Source: an uncultured Holophagaceae bacterium | GTDB taxonomy: Bacteria > Acidobacteriota > Holophagae > Holophagales > Holophagaceae | Assembly (NCBI GenBank): GCA_903843705.1 | Contig: CAIMQW010000070.1 | Span: 1 to 35,382 of the forward strand | Direction of reading: 5' to 3' | DNA: 35,382 bases | In this document: positions 23,610 through 31,580 of the stretch, piece by piece | How the letters are laid out: each line of letters starts with the position of its first letter | Position numbering within the stretch: the stretch's first letter is position 1 | Notes under the pieces: model-generated | Databases searched by the model: none | Told to the model about the DNA's origin: nothing | What the model saw: the letters and a program-made list of their open reading frames with translations, nothing else | Program-made: the position numbers and the translations under genes

Positions 23610-23650
23610 TTGACAAAAAGGTTGTCAAAGTCGATATTGTGCCATTCATT
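23610..23650 (+). promoter_or_regulatory. Operator-like palindrome and candidate promoter of the cytochrome operon
   Basis: TTGACAA-AAAGG-TTGTCAA (23610-23628) is a perfect 7-bp inverted repeat with a 5-bp spacer. Its right arm forms a possible -35 (TTGTCA, 23622-23627), with TTCATT (23645-23650) 17 bp downstream as a weak -10. A protein on the palindrome would block this promoter. The leader to the porin ATG would then be about 310 nt. Confidence 0.45.
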
Positions 23651-23971: not shown

Positions 23972-25345
23972 ATGAAACGACACACCCATGTGGCCCTGAT
24001 TGCCACCCTGATGTCTGCCACGGCCTGGGGCCAGGAGGTGAGCCTCTACGGCACCACCATGGCCCAGATGTGGAAGTCGGAGGACCCGGGCTTCAATAAG
24101 GCTACCTTCACGCCGGCCACCCAGTATCTGGGCATCGACGCCACCAAACTGGGCTCGGACAACCTGTCCCTGCACCTCTTCGGTTGGGGCAAGACCGACC
24201 TCAGCGACTCCACCAACTTCGACGGCACGAAGACTGCCGGCTACCTGAACTACGGCTACCTCCAGTACCAGTTCAGCAAGGCCAACGCCGAGATCAAGGC
24301 GGGCCGCTTCACCACGAACCAGAGCACCGGCTTCGAGCAGGTCGACGGCGTCAGCGCCCGGACGGACCTCCGCGGCGGCTTCACTCTGTCTGGTTTCGCC
24401 GGCAAGCCCGTCATCTACAAGGCCGGGGATCTAGCACACCTGAGTGGGAGTGCCGCGCAGCACAACTACGATTTCCAGCGCGATGTCATCTTCGGCACCC
24501 GCCTCGGCTGGCGCCCCTCGACCACCGGTGAGATCGGGGTCTCCTACCTGCAGGACGGCAGCAAGATGGCCAAGGACCTGACCATCCCCCAGCCCGTCGA
24601 CTACACCCGCCGGCAACTGGGCCTCGACCTGACCTACGTGCCCGCCACCTTCCTCGACTTCCGCGGCCGCACGATCTACGACGTCGCCAACCAGCGTAGC
24701 AACATCGCTGAGAACGACTACACCGCCACCGTGAAGCTGGGTAGTCAGGTCTCCGTGGCCGGCAACTACGCCGAGCGTAACTTCCTCTACTACTACGCTG
24801 GCACCAACCTGCCGAGCCTCTTCCGCCAGACCGATAACGACCGGTTCAAGGGCTGGGGCGGCAACGTCACCTGGAACGCCCCTCTGTCGATTCAGCTGGT
24901 TGCCGACTACCGCCACACCCACCGCGAGACCTACGGTGATGTAAACAAGGTTGGCGGCGAGCTGCGCTGGGCCAATGCCGACAAGACCCTGCTGGTGGGT
25001 GCCAGCGGCCACGTCGCGAACGCCGCCAAGACCCTGGTGGTGGACTCCGCCGCCCCCTTCCGCAGCCTCTCCTACGGGGAAGCTCGCGCCTGGACCATGG
25101 TCACCAAGGGCAAGTTCACGGCCAGCCTGGACGGCATCCTGCAGAAGTACCGAGCGTCCAACCCCTACCTGAACGGCCTCAAGAACCTCTACGAGGTGGT
25201 CGGCTCGCTGGGCTACGAGGTAACCAAGAACGTGAAGGTGTCCGGCGATCTCAGCCACGCAACCACCGCCGTCTCCAAGAACGAGACCCGGGGGCTTCTG
25301 CGAGCCGAGTACCGCTTCGGCATGGCTAGCAAGGGAGGTCGTTAA
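23972..25345 (+). CDS. Outer-membrane beta-barrel porin of a cytochrome conduit
   Basis: The 457-residue protein has a signal peptide (MKRHTHVALIATLMSATAWG). The mature part is rich in alternating amphipathic strands with aromatic ends, for example NLSLHLFGWGKTDL, AGYLNYGYLQYQF and SIQLVADYRHTHRETYG. It ends in the strand TRGLLRAEYRFG before a short basic tail. No heme motifs are present. It is smaller than MtrB (about 650-700 residues) and closer in size to porins beside Geobacter multiheme clusters. The likely role is to sheathe a cytochrome wire through the outer membrane. The open frame begins at 23567, but the signal peptide fixes the start at 23972 (SD-like AGAGG). Its stop overlaps the next start (TAATG). 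Confidence 0.8.
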   Translation: MKRHTHVALIATLMSATAWGQEVSLYGTTMAQMWKSEDPGFNKATFTPATQYLGIDATKLGSDNLSLHLFGWGKTDLSDSTNFDGTKTAGYLNYGYLQYQFSKANAEIKAGRFTTNQSTGFEQVDGVSARTDLRGGFTLSGFAGKPVIYKAGDLAHLSGSAAQHNYDFQRDVIFGTRLGWRPSTTGEIGVSYLQDGSKMAKDLTIPQPVDYTRRQLGLDLTYVPATFLDFRGRTIYDVANQRSNIAENDYTATVKLGSQVSVAGNYAERNFLYYYAGTNLPSLFRQTDNDRFKGWGGNVTWNAPLSIQLVADYRHTHRETYGDVNKVGGELRWANADKTLLVGASGHVANAAKTLVVDSAAPFRSLSYGEARAWTMVTKGKFTASLDGILQKYRASNPYLNGLKNLYEVVGSLGYEVTKNVKVSGDLSHATTAVSKNETRGLLRAEYRFGMASKGGR

Positions 25346-25818
25346 TGGCCCGCAAAACTGCTCTCAAGGTCTTCGCCGCTGTGCTGGGCCTCGGTGTCCT
25401 CATGGCGTGCAGCCTCGTCTCTCCCGAGGCGAGCTTCGCCAGGACCCACCCCCAGGAACTGGGCGCCGGCCGGCCCGTGTGCTCTGAGTGCCACACCACC
25501 GATGTGTCCAAGGGCGCTCTCAAGCCCTACGCCGCCTTTGACCACACGGTCGGGTTCGTGAAGGACCACCGCTTCCAGGCCAACCAGGACAACAACACCT
25601 GCGCCTCCTGCCATGCCCAGTCCTTCTGCTCGGACTGCCACGGCGGCAAGGCTCCCATGAAGCCCGCCACCCGCCTGAGCGACCGCCCTGACCGGGCCGC
25701 GCCGCATCGGGGCGATTACATGACGCTGCACCGCATTGAAGGAAAGATGGATCCCTCCAGCTGCTTCAAGTGCCACGGCAGGGCCAACAACGACAAGTGC
25801 CAGGCTTGTCACCGGTAG
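25345..25818 (+). CDS. Pentaheme c-type cytochrome lipoprotein
   Basis: The 157-residue protein begins with a lipoprotein signal (LGLGVLMACS, lipid on C22). It has five CxxCH heme sites at residues 46 (CSECH), 86 (CASCH), 95 (CSDCH), 140 (CFKCH) and 152 (CQACH). Five hemes in about 135 mature residues is very dense, fitting an electron wire. Extra histidines (HTVGF, HRFQ, HRGDY, LHR) could be distal ligands. Its start overlaps the porin stop by one base, so the two are translationally coupled and may be assembled together. The face of the outer membrane it occupies is unknown. Confidence 0.88.
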   Translation: MARKTALKVFAAVLGLGVLMACSLVSPEASFARTHPQELGAGRPVCSECHTTDVSKGALKPYAAFDHTVGFVKDHRFQANQDNNTCASCHAQSFCSDCHGGKAPMKPATRLSDRPDRAAPHRGDYMTLHRIEGKMDPSSCFKCHGRANNDKCQACHR

Positions 25819-25846
25819 ATCCGCTTGAGTGCCGAAAGGGAACCCA

Positions 25847-26491
25847 ATGAGCCGAACTAGACTGATGGCGGGAAGCTGCTTCGCGATGGTGCTCACGCTC
25901 CTTGCCTGGGGCTGCGCCGGGACCGCGAGCAAGGCGGTGCCCTTCAACGCCACCACGGGCGTGCACCCCACGACCTGGATCCAGGACCACTGGGCCGAAT
26001 ACGTCAAGGCCCCTGCGCAGTGCCGGACTTGCCACGGTTCCACGGATGATCCCGCGCAGGCTGGCGGCATCTCCGGCTGGAGCTGCTTCAAGTGCCATAC
26101 CGCCGTCAATCACCCCGATAACTGGGCGCTCCCCACGCAGCACGGTCGCCTCGGTGCCCAGGCCGCCCCGAACGCCGCCAGCCCCACGGCGATGGTCGGC
26201 TTTGCCCACTGCGCCAAGTGCCACGGGTCGAGCTTCGACAACGGCATCACGATCTCCTGCAAGTCCTGCCACACCAAGGCGCCGCACCCGAATCGTCCCT
26301 GGACCGGAACCACCTTGACCGCGCCCAGCCACATCCGCACCAACCAGGCGAATGCCACCGAGTGCGCCAAGTGCCACACCGCCGGCGCCAACTCGACCCT
26401 GAAGCCGCTCATCACCGCCGCCGATCCCCTCGGCTCGGCCCCGGGCTGCCTCAACAACACCCTCTGCCACGGAACCAACGTCAAGCGCTAG
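25847..26491 (+). CDS. Penta- or hexaheme c-type cytochrome lipoprotein
   Basis: The 214-residue protein has a hydrophobic leader ending in LLAWGCAG, a likely lipobox although Trp at -2 is unusual. Five CxxCH sites are at residues 59 (CRTCH), 80 (CFKCH), 122 (CAKCH), 138 (CKSCH) and 173 (CAKCH). A sixth, widened CX5CH motif (CLNNTLCHG) begins at 201. The start is ATG 25847 with SD AAAGGGA; a GTG at 25829 has poorer spacing. It lies 28 bp after the pentaheme gene. It probably relays electrons between the small cytochrome and the decaheme surface protein. Confidence 0.87.
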   Translation: MSRTRLMAGSCFAMVLTLLAWGCAGTASKAVPFNATTGVHPTTWIQDHWAEYVKAPAQCRTCHGSTDDPAQAGGISGWSCFKCHTAVNHPDNWALPTQHGRLGAQAAPNAASPTAMVGFAHCAKCHGSSFDNGITISCKSCHTKAPHPNRPWTGTTLTAPSHIRTNQANATECAKCHTAGANSTLKPLITAADPLGSAPGCLNNTLCHGTNVKR

Positions 26492-26519
26492 CCTACGGCC
26501 CAACGGGGCCCCTGTACTC

Positions 26520-26529
26520 AAAGGAGGTG
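26520..26529 (+). other. Perfect Shine-Dalgarno-like sequence without a gene
   Basis: AAAGGAGGTG lies in the 120-bp gap before the decaheme gene, whose own SD (AAGGAG) is at about 26598-26603. No ATG, GTG or TTG follows at a useful distance: the overlapping GTG would sit inside the SD and reads only five codons. A weak GGCCC/GGGCC hairpin precedes it. No other feature is seen in this gap. Confidence 0.4.
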
Positions 26530-26611
26530 CGACATCCCGTCTAGTGAGACAAGCACTTCTCTTCGACCGCTCTGCAACCGCTTCACCACCTCAATTCAAG
26601 GAGAAAGAAAA

Positions 26612-29596
26612 ATGAAGCATCGACCCCTGAAACAGCTCTGCGGGCTCATCGCCACCGCAGCCATCGCCATCGCGCTGATCGGTTGCAACGGCAAGGACGG
26701 CGCCACCGGCGCCACCGGACCCGCCGGCACCAGCGGCACCAATGGCACCAACGGCACCAACGGCACCAACGGCACCAACGGCACCAGCCCGGTTATCACC
26801 GTGAACGCCGCCGCTCTGACCCCCGACCAGTGGGCGAACCTGTCCCTGTCCGGCTCGGTCACCAGCGCCACGGTCACTGACGCCGCCGGCAAGCCCGTCG
26901 TGAACTTCAAGGTCGTGGACCAGAACGGCACCCCCGTCTCCGGCCTCGGCTTCACCACGAAGGCCTCCAATGCCCTGGCTTCCAGCTACGCGAACCTGGC
27001 CTTCAGCATCGCCAAGCTCGTCCCTGGCACCAACGGCAGCCCCAGCAAGTGGGTCAGCTATGTCGTGACCTCCATGCCGAACACCACCACCGCGGTTGCC
27101 CCCGGCAAGCCCAGCACCGACAGCACGGGCACCCTGGTCGACAACGGCGATGGCAGCTACAAGTACACCTTCTACCGTGACATCACTGCCGCCCAGCCCT
27201 TCCTGGATGGCTACACCTACACCGGCAACAACACCCGCGCCGACCTGGGTGATGTGACCTTCAAAAACGTCCTCACCCACCGCGTCTCCATCCAGGTGGG
27301 CGGCAACGCCCGCGGGACCAGCACCAACACCCCCGATGCCTCCAACAGCGGCATTGTCGGCGTGCCCGTCAAGAACCCCGCCAACATCGTCTACGACTTC
27401 GTGCCCTCCACAGGCGCGGTGGCCGCTCCCGCCGCCAGCCGCGACATCGTGACCCTGGCCGCCTGCAACGCCTGCCACACGGAGCTCGTCGTCCACGGCG
27501 GCAGCCGGAAGGACCCCCGCTACTGCGTGATGTGCCACAACGACCAGCGCAAGTACGGGTCTGCTGAGTCTGCCACTACGGCCCCCACCACGACGGCCCC
27601 CTACGGTGGCTATGTCTCCAGCGCCCCTGGTGCCACCACCACCGTCAGCACCAACAAGATCAACGGCCTGTCTGCGGGCGATTTCCCCGCCTTCATCCAC
27701 CGTCTGCACCGTGGCGAAGGCCTCCAGAAGACCGGCTACCTCTACGGCGGTCTCTACTTCAACGAGGTCCGCTACCCCCAGAGCATCCAGAACTGCACCA
27801 CCTGCCACACCTCGGCCAATCCCGCCACTGCCGCCCTCGGCGACAACTGGAAGAACGTCCCCAGCCGCATGGCTTGCGGCGCCTGCCACGACCGCATTGA
27901 CTTCACCAAGTCCGCCGCTGCTGGCTACCACGAAGGTGGCGTCCAGCTCGACGACTCCATGTGCATCAGCTGCCACGGCCCCGCCGGCGTGGCCCTGAAC
28001 CACGTCCCCGTGACGCCTCCCAATGCGACCAATGCCGGCCTGACCGCCGCGCAGAAAGGCGATGCCAGCAACAGCCACACCAACTCCGGCTACGTCCCCA
28101 GCGACCTCGCCAACCTGCCCGCGGGCGCCCACTGGCTCAAGTACGACATCTCCAAGGTCTACGTCGACGCCAGCAAGCACCCCGTGTTCGTCTTCCGCTT
28201 CCTGCAGGACGGCCTGACCACCGCCCCCGTCACCTTCAACACTTGGGACGCCACCGCCAACGGGGGGGACGGCAACGAGCTGATCACCAACTGGGTCGGC
28301 AGCACCACCCTCTACTTCGCCTACGCAGTGCCCCAGGACGGCATCGCCGCTCCCAAGGACTGGAACGCCACGGTGAGCCTCGCGCTGCGCAAGCTCTGGC
28401 GCAATGGCCAGACCGGCGCCACCCTCACGGGCCCCGACGCCAGCGGCTACTACACCGCCACCTTCGGTCACGTGACCATTCCTGCCACCGCGACCCTGCG
28501 GACCGGCGGCATCGGCTACTCCTACGGCGTGGCTGCGGCTGCGGCTGGTGGCCCTCCTGCCACCAAGGCTGTGAGCAACACGGATGCCATGCCTCTCACC
28601 CAGATCAACCTGGCGGCCTACCCCTACGGGAAGACCGTGATCAACGGTGTCCTGCAGGACGCCCCCTACCAGGGCGGTGTCGTACCTCCCAGCCCCAACA
28701 TGTATAAGATGGCCGTGGCCTCCGCCACCTCCACCACTGCTGACACCGCTCGCCGTCCCATCGTCGAGAACGCCCGCTGCAACACCTGCCACAAGAGCCT
28801 GGGTGTCTTCACCGAAGGCGTCTTCCACGCCGGCCAGCGGAACGATGCCCCCACCTGCACCTTCTGCCACCACACCAACACGGTCGGCAGCACCCAGACG
28901 GGCTTCGGCATCAATATCAAGACCGTCGTCCACGCCATCCACGCTGGCTCCAAGCGCGTCATCCCCTTCACCTGGGAAGTCGCGGGCCTGTATTGGGAAG
29001 TCGGCTACCCCGGCGTCCTGAACAACTGCGAAGCCTGCCACGTGCCGGGGTCCTATGACTTCAGCGCCAGCACCAACGCCGGCCAGGTTGCCAGCCTCCT
29101 GTGGGACACCAATGCTTCCGGTGCCTACGCGTCGACCCTGACCGCCCTGTCCACCACCGCCCCGTTCGTCTATGACTCCACCAAGACCTACACGGCGCCC
29201 TGGATCACCCCCAACACCAACTACGGTTCCACCCTCTTTGTGAACAGCACCCTGGTTGCTTCGGCCGCCCGGACCTGGCCCAGTGCGAACACCGCCAGCT
29301 CCACGGCCCTCATGGGTGGCACGATCGTCGTGGCCGCCGGTGGCGTCCTCGAAGCTGAGCCCGCCACCCTGGTGACGAGCCCGATCACCGCTGCTTGCGT
29401 GGCCTGCCACGACAGCAACCTTGCCAAGCTCCACATTGCTGCCAACGGTGGCGTCATTGCCAAGCCCCGTAGCACCGTGGTCACCTCCGTGGCCGGCGCC
29501 GCTCCCATCGTGCCGATCAACAACACCGAGCAGTGCCTGCTCTGCCACGGCAACGGGAAGGTTGCGGACATCCGCGCCGTCCACATGACCTTCTAG
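26612..29596 (+). CDS. OmcA/MtrC-family decaheme outer-membrane lipoprotein cytochrome
   Basis: The 994-residue protein has a lipoprotein signal (IAIALIGCNG, lipid on C25) followed by a collagen-like Gly-X-Y stretch (about residues 26-60). Ten CxxCH sites fall in two groups: 285, 305, 395, 422 and 451; then 723, 749, 806, 929 and 975. Between and before them are Ser/Thr-rich beta domains. This is the four-domain plan of MtrC/OmcA (beta, five hemes, beta, five hemes), although the protein is longer than MtrC (about 670). Such proteins sit on the cell surface and reduce metals or electrodes. It is the last gene of the porin-cytochrome operon and is followed by a strong terminator. Confidence 0.93.
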   Translation: MKHRPLKQLCGLIATAAIAIALIGCNGKDGATGATGPAGTSGTNGTNGTNGTNGTNGTSPVITVNAAALTPDQWANLSLSGSVTSATVTDAAGKPVVNFKVVDQNGTPVSGLGFTTKASNALASSYANLAFSIAKLVPGTNGSPSKWVSYVVTSMPNTTTAVAPGKPSTDSTGTLVDNGDGSYKYTFYRDITAAQPFLDGYTYTGNNTRADLGDVTFKNVLTHRVSIQVGGNARGTSTNTPDASNSGIVGVPVKNPANIVYDFVPSTGAVAAPAASRDIVTLAACNACHTELVVHGGSRKDPRYCVMCHNDQRKYGSAESATTAPTTTAPYGGYVSSAPGATTTVSTNKINGLSAGDFPAFIHRLHRGEGLQKTGYLYGGLYFNEVRYPQSIQNCTTCHTSANPATAALGDNWKNVPSRMACGACHDRIDFTKSAAAGYHEGGVQLDDSMCISCHGPAGVALNHVPVTPPNATNAGLTAAQKGDASNSHTNSGYVPSDLANLPAGAHWLKYDISKVYVDASKHPVFVFRFLQDGLTTAPVTFNTWDATANGGDGNELITNWVGSTTLYFAYAVPQDGIAAPKDWNATVSLALRKLWRNGQTGATLTGPDASGYYTATFGHVTIPATATLRTGGIGYSYGVAAAAAGGPPATKAVSNTDAMPLTQINLAAYPYGKTVINGVLQDAPYQGGVVPPSPNMYKMAVASATSTTADTARRPIVENARCNTCHKSLGVFTEGVFHAGQRNDAPTCTFCHHTNTVGSTQTGFGINIKTVVHAIHAGSKRVIPFTWEVAGLYWEVGYPGVLNNCEACHVPGSYDFSASTNAGQVASLLWDTNASGAYASTLTALSTTAPFVYDSTKTYTAPWITPNTNYGSTLFVNSTLVASAARTWPSANTASSTALMGGTIVVAAGGVLEAEPATLVTSPITAACVACHDSNLAKLHIAANGGVIAKPRSTVVTSVAGAAPIVPINNTEQCLLCHGNGKVADIRAVHMTF
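26726..26788 (+). repeat. Seven 9-bp tandem repeats coding a collagen-like (GTN)n stretch
   Basis: Seven in-frame units of GGCACCAAC type (variants GGCACCAGC at both ends and GGCACCAAT second) encode GTS-GTN x5-GTS. They continue a Gly-X-Y run begun by GKDGATGATGPA. Four units are identical, which allows slippage that would change length in steps of three residues without breaking the frame. Confidence 0.9.
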
Positions 29597-29654: not shown

Positions 29655-29694
29655 AGAACCCGGATGCCTCGGCCGCCGGGTTCTTTTTTTTTCT
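29655..29694 (+). terminator. Rho-independent terminator of the cytochrome operon
   Basis: A 9-bp perfect stem (AGAACCCGG 29655-29663 with CCGGGTTCT 29676-29684), a 12-nt loop and a run of T residues follow the decaheme stop codon by about 60 bp. Confidence 0.9.
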
Positions 29695-29707: not shown

Positions 29708-29738
29708 TTGACAGGCGCCTCCGGTTGCGCCGAAAATA
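29708..29738 (+). promoter_or_regulatory. Candidate promoter of the helix-hairpin-helix gene
   Basis: A perfect -35 TTGACA at 29708-29713 is followed after 18-19 bp by an AT-rich GAAAATA. It lies between the operon terminator and the next ATG at 29761. The -10 is imperfect. Confidence 0.4.
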
Positions 29739-29760: not shown

Positions 29761-30144
29761 ATGAATAAAAAACCAGTTACCATTCTTGGCGCCCTGCTGC
29801 TCGTCTGCGCCCTGGCCCCCGCGGCCTGGGCCCAGGAAGACGACGCCTCGCCCAAGAAGAAGCCGGTGCCCAAGGCCGTGCATGAGGCCCGGGCCAAGGC
29901 GGCCGCCAAGAAGGCCAAGGCCAAGGCCGATGCGGACGCCAAGGCCAAGGCCGTGGCCATCGACCTGAACCGGGCCACCAAGGCGCAGCTGAAGGCCCTC
30001 CCGGGCCTCACGGACGCCCAGGCGGACGCCATCATCGCCAAGCGTCCGCACCGCTCCAAGACGGACATGGTGACCAAGGGCATCATCCCGGCGGAGACCT
30101 ACCAGGCTTACAGCAAGCGCATCATCGTCCGAGAGGCACACTGA
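29761..30144 (+). CDS. Secreted ComEA-like helix-hairpin-helix protein
   Basis: The 127-residue protein has a signal peptide (KPVTILGALLLVCALAPAAW, cleavage likely before QEDDAS). A Lys/Ala-rich region (about 31-65, with PKKKPVPKAVHEARAKAAAK and AKAKADADAKAKA) follows. The C-terminal half (66-110) matches the HHH fold of ComEA: VAIDLNRATKAQLKALPGLT followed by DAQADAIIAKRP. ComEA binds DNA outside the inner membrane during transformation. Here the membrane anchor is replaced by a cleavable signal. The gene follows the cytochrome operon but has its own promoter. Binding of extracellular DNA is possible but unproven. Confidence 0.82.
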   Translation: MNKKPVTILGALLLVCALAPAAWAQEDDASPKKKPVPKAVHEARAKAAAKKAKAKADADAKAKAVAIDLNRATKAQLKALPGLTDAQADAIIAKRPHRSKTDMVTKGIIPAETYQAYSKRIIVREAH

Positions 30145-30389: not shown

Positions 30390-30454
30390 GGACCTTGAGC
30401 GCATCTTCGAAGATGAGCAGGGCTTTACGCCAGAGTTTCTCGCAGGAGGATCCC

Positions 30455-30922
30455 ATGCTTCCGCTCTCCCAGACCACAGGTTACGCGGTGCGCGCCCTGA
30501 GGTGCCTCCAGGAGCCCGGGGGCCAGCCCGTGCTGGTCGAGGCCATCGCTGAGTCCACGGGGATTCCCCGCTCCTACCTGTCGAAGCTGATCCACAAGCT
30601 CGCCAAGAAGGGTCTGGTGGTGGCTCGCCGCGGGCACCACGGCGGGGTGGTTCTGGCCAAGGCCTCCACGGAGATCTCGGTCGCAGACCTGACCGATGCC
30701 ATCGATGGTGTGACCTGGCAGAAGCGCTGCCTCATGGGCCTGATCGGCTGCACCGCCGAGAAGCCCTGCAGTGTGCACGACTTCTGGGAAGAGACCCGGG
30801 GAATGATCATGCTCCGGCTACGGTCCGTGACCCTGGCGGACCTGGCCACCCTGCCGGACGCGGGCGTCGAGCGGTTCCGGGCCCGCCACGGGTTCGGCAA
30901 CTCGGTGTCGGCCTCGGCCTGA
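30455..30922 (+). CDS. Rrf2-family regulator with probable Fe-S cluster (copy 2)
   Basis: The 155-residue protein starts MLPLSQTTGYAVRALRCLQE, the Rrf2 N-terminus, and has the DNA-binding helix GIPRSYLSKLIHKLAKKGLV with RRGHHGGVVLAK as the wing. Cysteines C92, C99 and C105 (CLMGLIGCTAEKPC) form CX6CX5C, as in the two other copies. The start ATG has a strong SD (AGGAGGA). It is convergent with copy 3 across a shared terminator. Its closeness to the cytochrome operon suggests control of electron-transfer or redox genes, which is inference. Confidence 0.9.
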   Translation: MLPLSQTTGYAVRALRCLQEPGGQPVLVEAIAESTGIPRSYLSKLIHKLAKKGLVVARRGHHGGVVLAKASTEISVADLTDAIDGVTWQKRCLMGLIGCTAEKPCSVHDFWEETRGMIMLRLRSVTLADLATLPDAGVERFRARHGFGNSVSASA

Positions 30923-30990: not shown

Positions 30991-31542
30991 TCAGGCCTTC
31001 TTGGCGGGAGCCTTCTTGACGGCGGGCTTCACGGCCTTGGCGGGGGCCTTCTTGGCGGCGGGCTTGGCGGCCTTCTTGACCCGGGGCTTGAGCTTCTTCT
31101 CGGGGAGGGCATCGGCCAGGCGCCAGGTGCGGCTGGCCTGCTCGAAGGTGCGGATCTCCTCCAGGGAGATGTCCTTCAGGCAACGGTGGATGTGATCCCG
31201 CTCGGCCTTCCAGAAGGTGTGAGAGGGGCAGGCCCGCTCGTCCGAGCAGTCCTTGAAGCCAAGGAGGCACTGGTTGCGCCACTCGGAGCCGTCCACGGCC
31301 TCGGCGATGAGGTCCAGGGTGATCTCCTTGGCGGCCAGGGCCAGCACCACGCCGCCCTTGTTGCCGCGCTTGGCCATCACCAGCCCGACCTTGGCAAGCT
31401 TGTGGATCATCTTGGATAGGTAGGGGCGCGGAAAGCCCGTGCGGGCGGCCACATCGACGACCAGCGTCGGCTTGCCGCCGGGATCCTGGAGGCAGCTCAT
31501 GGCCAGGACCGCATAACCTGAGGACTGGGAGAGTGGAAGCAT
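30991..31542 (-). CDS. Rrf2-family Fe-S regulator with histone-H1-like tail (copy 3)
   Basis: The 183-residue protein is close to copy 2 (MLPLSQSSGYAVLAMSCLQD; GFPRPYLSKMIHKLAKVGLV; RGNKGGVVLAL). Cysteines C92, C99 and C105 (CLLGFKDCSDERAC) again form CX6CX5C. Unlike the other copies it has a basic tail at 149-183 with 14 Lys, many Ala and Pro and no acidic residues (KKAPAK and KPA units), resembling the C-terminus of histone H1. The ATG at 31542 was chosen over an upstream GTG at 31554, because it matches the start of copy 2 and has an AGGTG sequence before it. Confidence 0.9.
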   Translation of the reverse strand: MLPLSQSSGYAVLAMSCLQDPGGKPTLVVDVAARTGFPRPYLSKMIHKLAKVGLVMAKRGNKGGVVLALAAKEITLDLIAEAVDGSEWRNQCLLGFKDCSDERACPSHTFWKAERDHIHRCLKDISLEEIRTFEQASRTWRLADALPEKKLKPRVKKAAKPAAKKAPAKAVKPAVKKAPAKKA

Positions 31543-31580
31543 AGGCACCTGCACGAAGTGGATGGGTTGATCGTGTTCAA

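Follow-up and report, generated by a model that had tools for sequence, protein, structure and literature searches.

A predicted four-gene porin–cytochrome conduit of Geothrix-type Holophagaceae with an Ext-type core and an OmcA/MtrC-family terminus

The window analyzed in this study, a stretch of 35,382 nucleotides, is one of the contigs of a 3.75-Mb genome (86% complete) of a Geothrix-type Holophagaceae bacterium. Bacteria of this type respire iron in soils and sediments. Among named loci, the closest are those of uncultured Holophagaceae and of Geothrix species, G. fermentans DSM 14018 among them. The genes and features of the locus are as follows.

23610-23638, + strand: sigma-70-like promoter candidate upstream of POR, matching 10 of 12 consensus positions
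23972-25345, + strand: POR, porin of 457 aa with a signal peptide and no Cys
25345-25818, + strand: CYA, 157 aa, five CXXCH motifs, lipobox LMAC
25847-26491, + strand: CYB, 214 aa from an ATG start, five CXXCH motifs and one CX5CH, lipobox-like WGC
26612-29596, + strand: DEC, 994 aa, ten CXXCH motifs, lipobox LIGC
29668-29690, + strand: terminator-like stem and T-run just 3' of DEC (pattern scan)
29708-29737: candidate for a promoter of HHH's own (pattern scan)
29761-30144, + strand: HHH, small secreted ComEA-like helix-hairpin-helix protein (PF12836, 5.9e-8)

The initial annotation had placed a porin and three lipoproteins (a pentaheme, a penta/hexaheme, and a decaheme) here; all four genes were found where it put them, and the porin length of 457 residues was exact. 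The POR and CYA genes share one base (TAATG). The spacing is 28 nt between CYA and CYB, for which a GTG farther upstream, at 25829, is a possible alternative start, and 120 nt between CYB and DEC. The CXXCH counts of CYA, CYB, and DEC (5, 5, and 10) are far above chance, the shuffle means being 0.04, 0.05, and 0.01, respectively, so that the excess is at least two orders of magnitude. The hairpin and T-run after DEC probably mark the operon end; the number of terminator-like sites in the region was not above that of shuffles, and it is the position and the T run of 29668-29690 that fit. Two sigma-70-like sites were found versus 0.5 expected. The divergent upstream genes encode indolepyruvate-type ferredoxin oxidoreductase subunits and an acyl-CoA ligase, and the downstream genes encode the ComEA-like secreted protein, two Rrf2 regulators, a DHO-dehydrogenase-family protein, and a pyruvate:ferredoxin oxidoreductase. 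The Rrf2-family regulator genes (30449-30922 and 30991-31554) are convergent and are kept beside the conduit in the genus; their products are candidates for iron or redox control. HHH follows 24 of the 35 DECs with enough downstream sequence and also stands between tandem DECs; a DNA-binding partner for surface cytochromes would be odd.

POR is predicted to be an outer-membrane beta-barrel, as its AF2 model (pLDDT 84.9) had 22 strands and no plug. No sequence match to POR was obtained in Pfam, NCBIfam, or PDB, and a profile search of PDB was also empty. When the fold was compared with PDB (Foldseek, VIA-align), generic 16- to 24-strand barrels were retrieved, namely TonB-dependent receptors, ushers, and porins; MtrB was not among the structures listed, the matches there being generic barrels. 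POR also gave no match to TIGR03509 (MtrB/PioB family) at E<=0.1, and no MtrB-family barrel was found in the host genome, at its 86% completeness, by a search that is able to find one, since TIGR03509 detects a barrel in 2 of 60 relatives. Above the cut-off, an MtrB/PioB-family barrel occurs in one genome of the genus, a 78% complete bin (G009:C164:4-2208), and represents either a true Geothrix Mtr or mis-binning. None of POR, CYA, and CYB had an above-cut-off match to TIGR03508 (MtrA/DmsE-type periplasmic decaheme), for which the rest of the host genome yielded sub-cut-off matches only; CYA and CYB, like POR, did not match TIGR03509. These results agree with the earlier description of the cluster as unlike MtrA and MtrB in its parts.

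Across 48 relatives of CYA, exactly five His residues outside the heme motifs were invariant (H35, H67, H75, H121, and H129), so that the five hemes can be paired with five distal His, one per heme. This pattern suggests that CYA is a pentaheme bis-His lipoprotein, and it is the constant partner of POR. The monomer model of CYA was of low confidence (pLDDT 64), and its profile gave weak PDB matches, limited to one MtrC pentaheme domain, such as any pentaheme domain might give. Mature CYA has about 136 residues, which is comparable to the size of the plugs within 22-strand TonB-dependent barrels.

In CYB, a C-X5-CH site (Cys at 201 and 207; typically GCFNNTLCH) was invariant in 24 of 24 relatives, and exactly six non-motif His were invariant in 24 homologs (H40, H48, H89, H99, H147, and H162), a number that matches the five CXXCH motifs plus CX5CH. 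On this conservation, CYB can be read as a bis-His hexaheme lipoprotein, by which the earlier 'penta/hexaheme' is narrowed to a hexaheme, and the four-gene set very probably carries about 21 hemes in total. In the literature collection searched, no paper used the term CX5CH together with heme, for which another notation may exist. If CX5CH binds heme, counts of CXXCH only would miss one heme per CYB unit, and the heme counts of the family would be systematically low. CYB matched the N-terminal ~210 aa of Geobacteraceae surface-type lipoproteins of 390-1231 aa, where the unit is often repeated. CX5CH is likewise repeated in the Geobacteraceae arrays. The unit is single in Holophagaceae and doubled in frame in lake MAGs; the form encoded at a second Geothrix locus has 1165 aa and 25 CXXCH. 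At this second, paralogous locus (L086, L087, L088, and L093, equal to loci L034 and L035), POR-CYA is followed by a lipoprotein of 1121-1168 aa with a CYB-like N-terminus, 25 CXXCH, and five CX4CH/CX5CH sites, and in the porin tree its porins branch basally to the remaining Holophagaceae sequences.

By its profile matches, DEC is an OmcA/MtrC-family decaheme lipoprotein, the type named in the initial annotation: it scored 447.5 bits with TIGR03507 (cut-off 209.3), and it matched PF22113 in three stretches (2.2e-49) and MtrF in PDB (4.9e-26). A Gly-rich collagen-like tract follows the lipobox (Collagen, 9.6e-5, below its cut-off). The further label 'Shewanella-like' could not be maintained, because the family is widespread and the sampled relatives were from Holophagaceae and Geobacteraceae, in a quick decaheme tree that contained no Shewanella sequence. 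In this tree, which is to be taken with caution, the decahemes of a related set of Geobacteraceae loci (tier ii; L136-L142 and L187-L193) intermingled with the Holophagaceae ones, and those of other Acidobacteriota formed a separate long-branched clade. Five of the six tier-ii decahemes tested were above the TIGR03507 cut-off.

POR was detected in 31 of 60 relatives, all of the same genus, and in none of the 24 other sampled genomes of the class and phylum; with 31 of 36 genus genomes carrying it, the cluster is near-universal in its genus. Among 247 Acidobacteriota genomes (140 genera), POR was confined to one family, bar one weak stop-containing match. Two near-Geothrix clusters (L072 and L075) lie on contigs labelled Deltaproteobacteria and Bacillota, which are probably mislabelled or mis-binned MAGs. 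The order POR-CYA-CYB(-DEC) was kept in the examined loci of the genus, bar CYB-extended and second-copy variants, and across Holophagaceae. The POR and CYA genes overlapped, by either 1 or 4 bases, in 47 of 50 loci of Holophagaceae and in 23 of 23 of Geobacteraceae. The 1-base overlap, previously taken to suggest co-assembly, is real and conserved, but it supports translational coupling and not directly co-assembly. A candidate for a natural POR-CYA fusion (L069:4714-6519) was rejected, the join being an NN assembly gap.

Conservation fell from CYA (80%) through POR (69%) and CYB (63.5%) to DEC (52%), and CYA was the highest and DEC the lowest in 16 of 17 loci. Such a decrease is as expected for a core-to-surface series; surface components have been described as replaced and fastest to diverge (PMC6148476; PMC12977616). 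POR-CYA is the coupled core, and the outer lipoproteins would be the exchangeable part. These data bear on the proposal of the initial annotation that two lipoproteins take the place of MtrA. CYA and CYB are both short and lipidated, their genes are adjacent, and their 11 hemes together come close to the 10 of MtrA, as would suit a stack of the two, end to end within and below the barrel, with DEC alone outside. We regard this arrangement as unlikely, since CYB corresponds to the repeat unit at the N-terminus of large surface-type lipoproteins, since its conservation is below that of CYA and POR, and since POR-CYA alone makes up the core that is invariant in the two phyla. As a single unit of those arrays, CYB would more likely be an exit-side relay than half an MtrA substitute, and only CYA is likely to be in the MtrA position.

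The place of DEC was considered in the same way. With POR-CYA-CYB as the conduit, DEC might stand outside the complex: a surface reductase in its own right, encoded in the same operon and receiving electrons by diffusion or contact. The 120-nt gap before DEC is consistent with this, as are the two or three tandem DECs of some loci and the lake Holophagaceae MAGs (L061, L062, and L063), in which CYB is duplicated (12 hemes) and the only decaheme, diverged and below the TIGR03507 cut-off at 162 bits, lies before the porin. Furthermore, one genome of the genus (G018) has DEC homologs and no POR, which indicates that DEC can exist without the POR-CYA core. However, DEC lies directly 3' of CYB in most Holophagaceae loci, and a scan of the CYB-DEC gap in the window found no terminator-like site. 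We therefore give a separate DEC an appreciable chance, short of an even one, and retain DEC as the end of the conduit.

A single search with the CYA profile recovered this POR-CYA pair from Geobacteraceae and from other Desulfuromonadales as well, and Geobacteraceae genomes contain additional pairs related to it. In an ext-like set (L131 and L133), organized as extABCD, there are an upstream 12-heme protein without a lipobox (11 CXXCH and one CX3CH) and a following lipoprotein. In an omb-like set, organized as ombB-omaB-omcB and tandemly duplicated in one Geobacteraceae genome, a 403-aa porin is accompanied by an 8-heme protein without a lipobox and a large cytochrome. In profile comparisons (hhalign), the Holophagaceae porins matched those of tier ii at 6e-51, the ext-like ones at 3.5e-20, and the omb-like ones at 4e-9 (4e-18 from the Geobacteraceae side), the ext-like and omb-like labels resting on gene organization and not on G. 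sulfurreducens reference sequences. For CYA the corresponding values were 4e-52, 4e-33, and 4e-21, compared with 1e-8 for the control, CYA versus CYB. Judged from these profiles, POR is probably a conduit porin of the Ext-type/Omb superfamily, homologous to the Geobacteraceae Ext-type porins and remotely to OmbB, and CYA is homologous to ExtC-type and remotely to OmaB-type cytochromes. The resemblance to Geobacter ext clusters in the initial annotation was thereby supported. Naming POR outright ExtB or ExtE was rejected, as Geobacteraceae have several related subfamilies and the labels come from gene organization. The 'possible hybrid' is not a one-off, because the same pairing recurs in Geobacteraceae and across the genus.

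The conserved pairing and the Ext/Omb-like homology support the earlier reading of the cluster as a porin-cytochrome conduit. POR has no database family match, which would suit an ordinary porin lying beside unrelated cytochromes; we consider such a coincidence highly improbable, as the pairing with a pentaheme lipoprotein is conserved in two phyla and related porin/cytochrome pairs occur in four porin subfamilies.

In a careful tree of 85 porins, the Holophagaceae sequences formed one clade (100/99) nested within Desulfuromonadales, with Geobacter argillaceus as sister (100/95) and another Geobacter nearby (98/99), and the omb-like porins were a distant group. The tree is evidence for movement of the core between phyla. 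Its nesting favors a single transfer event, from Desulfuromonadales into Holophagaceae, after which descent was vertical; the POR-CYA core was probably acquired from the Geobacter lineage by a Holophagaceae ancestor. The insertion appears to be old, because the neighboring genes are conserved across the genus. The components of Ext and OmcB have been reported to share no homology (PMC6148476). Our profile comparisons suggest that the Ext and Omb conduits, labelled by gene organization, are distant relatives rather than unrelated inventions. It is about an even question whether the Ext, Omb, and Holophagaceae conduits all descend from one ancestral porin/small-cytochrome core that moved between phyla, with a modular outside made of CX5CH hexaheme arrays (one to several) or of one unit and an interchangeable MtrC-type decaheme. 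If true, this modular-core reading would revise the published view of Ext and Omb and define a heme-binding CX5CH motif.

Taken together, these findings make it quite probable that the four genes encode a trans-outer-membrane conduit for respiratory electron export, with a POR-CYA core from the Ext-type conduit of Desulfuromonadales and exchangeable outer lipoproteins. POR would span the outer membrane as the predicted 22-strand barrel. CYA would lie in or under it and take electrons from periplasmic cytochromes; the homology with the OmbB/OmaB pair points to CYA as the one that would fill or close the barrel. CYB would relay electrons from CYA on the exit side to DEC, the presumed terminal reductase at the surface, which may pass them to Fe(III) minerals, shuttles, or electrodes. 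We infer this complex and the order periplasm, CYA in POR, CYB, DEC, and minerals or electrodes from homology and conservation; all three cytochromes are predicted lipoproteins and could face either side of the membrane. NapC/NrfH-family quinol-side cytochromes are encoded in the host genome and could feed the conduit. Porin-cytochrome conduits can work in either direction, and the present one might run inward, with Fe(II), electrodes, or partner cells as electron donors. Geothrix reduces Fe(III), and the type species of the genus is a known Fe(III) reducer. The near-universal presence of the cluster in such a genus argues against inward flow. For Holophaga/Geothrix that consume ferrous iron in the vicinity of cable bacteria, an inward direction has been suggested (PMC11748539). 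Mtr clusters that serve Fe(II) oxidation are often without MtrC (PMC4245776), whereas the present cluster has a decaheme of the MtrC family. We hence regard inward flow as improbable and prefer electron export. Geothrix, a major Fe(III)-reducing genus outside Geobacter and Shewanella, now has a concrete and testable genus-wide candidate conduit.

Among known systems, the Ext conduits of Geobacter (ExtABCD and ExtEFG) also combine a porin, the pentaheme outer-membrane lipoprotein encoded after it (ExtB-ExtC and ExtE-ExtF; PMC6148476), and a further multiheme cytochrome. CYA, as a pentaheme predicted outer-membrane lipoprotein beside a porin, corresponds to ExtC/ExtF in these features, and replacement of outer lipoproteins, as in the present cluster, is a published feature of ext loci. 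Unlike in Ext, no multiheme periplasmic cytochrome (ExtA/ExtG) and no adjacent periplasmic dodecaheme is present in the cluster, the third protein is a single hexaheme unit, and the terminus is an OmcA/MtrC decaheme. A search of the 86% complete host genome for an ExtA-like periplasmic dodecaheme, run without a positive control, gave no match; extBCD loci without an adjacent extA exist (PMC6148476). In the tier-ii loci, a related porin is found with a pentaheme lipoprotein, mostly with a CYB-like one too, and in several cases with an OmcA/MtrC-family decaheme nearby, but the decaheme is often upstream of or apart from the porin, and in the tree their porins are a clade of their own. Some genomes have been described as carrying a decaheme lipoprotein gene upstream of extE (PMC6148476).

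The OmbB-OmaB-OmcB (Pcc) complex, experimentally a conduit (PMC4245776), follows the same logic and is remotely homologous in porin and partner cytochrome. However, OmaB-like proteins carry 8 hemes and lack a lipobox, whereas CYA has 5 hemes and a lipobox, and the large third cytochrome is apparently of another type than the OmcA/MtrC family of DEC; POR, CYA, and DEC do not correspond to the set of OmbB, 8-heme OmaB, and 12-heme OmcB. With MtrCAB of Shewanella, the cluster shares the design principle and the terminal decaheme family (TIGR03507), but POR is not MtrB (457 aa versus a 662-position model), there is no MtrA, and CYA and CYB are separate small lipoproteins. True MtrCAB occurs in other Acidobacteriota, of the class Acidobacteriia (PMC8805035).

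Precedents also exist in reports on Holophaga and Geothrix. In 2020, a Holophaga PCC was placed in the ExtB/E family (PMC7399161). Sediment transcripts included extEFG and mtrF homologs of a Holophaga MAG and an mtrF homolog of a Geothrix MAG, with the same extEFG/mtrF potential noted for Geothrix (PMC11748539). These accounts share the ExtB/E-family PCC and the extEFG and mtrF homologs with our analysis, and in the parts available they do not contain the four-gene order, the hexaheme, its CX5CH, or the porin phylogeny. An ExtB/E-type PCC in Holophaga is thus already published, and what is new is the specific four-gene architecture, the putative CX5CH hexaheme, the suggested common core of Ext and Omb, and the transfer inferred from the porin tree. 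The present cluster is a recognizable, not previously itemized variant of the Geobacter Ext conduit with an MtrC-type terminus.
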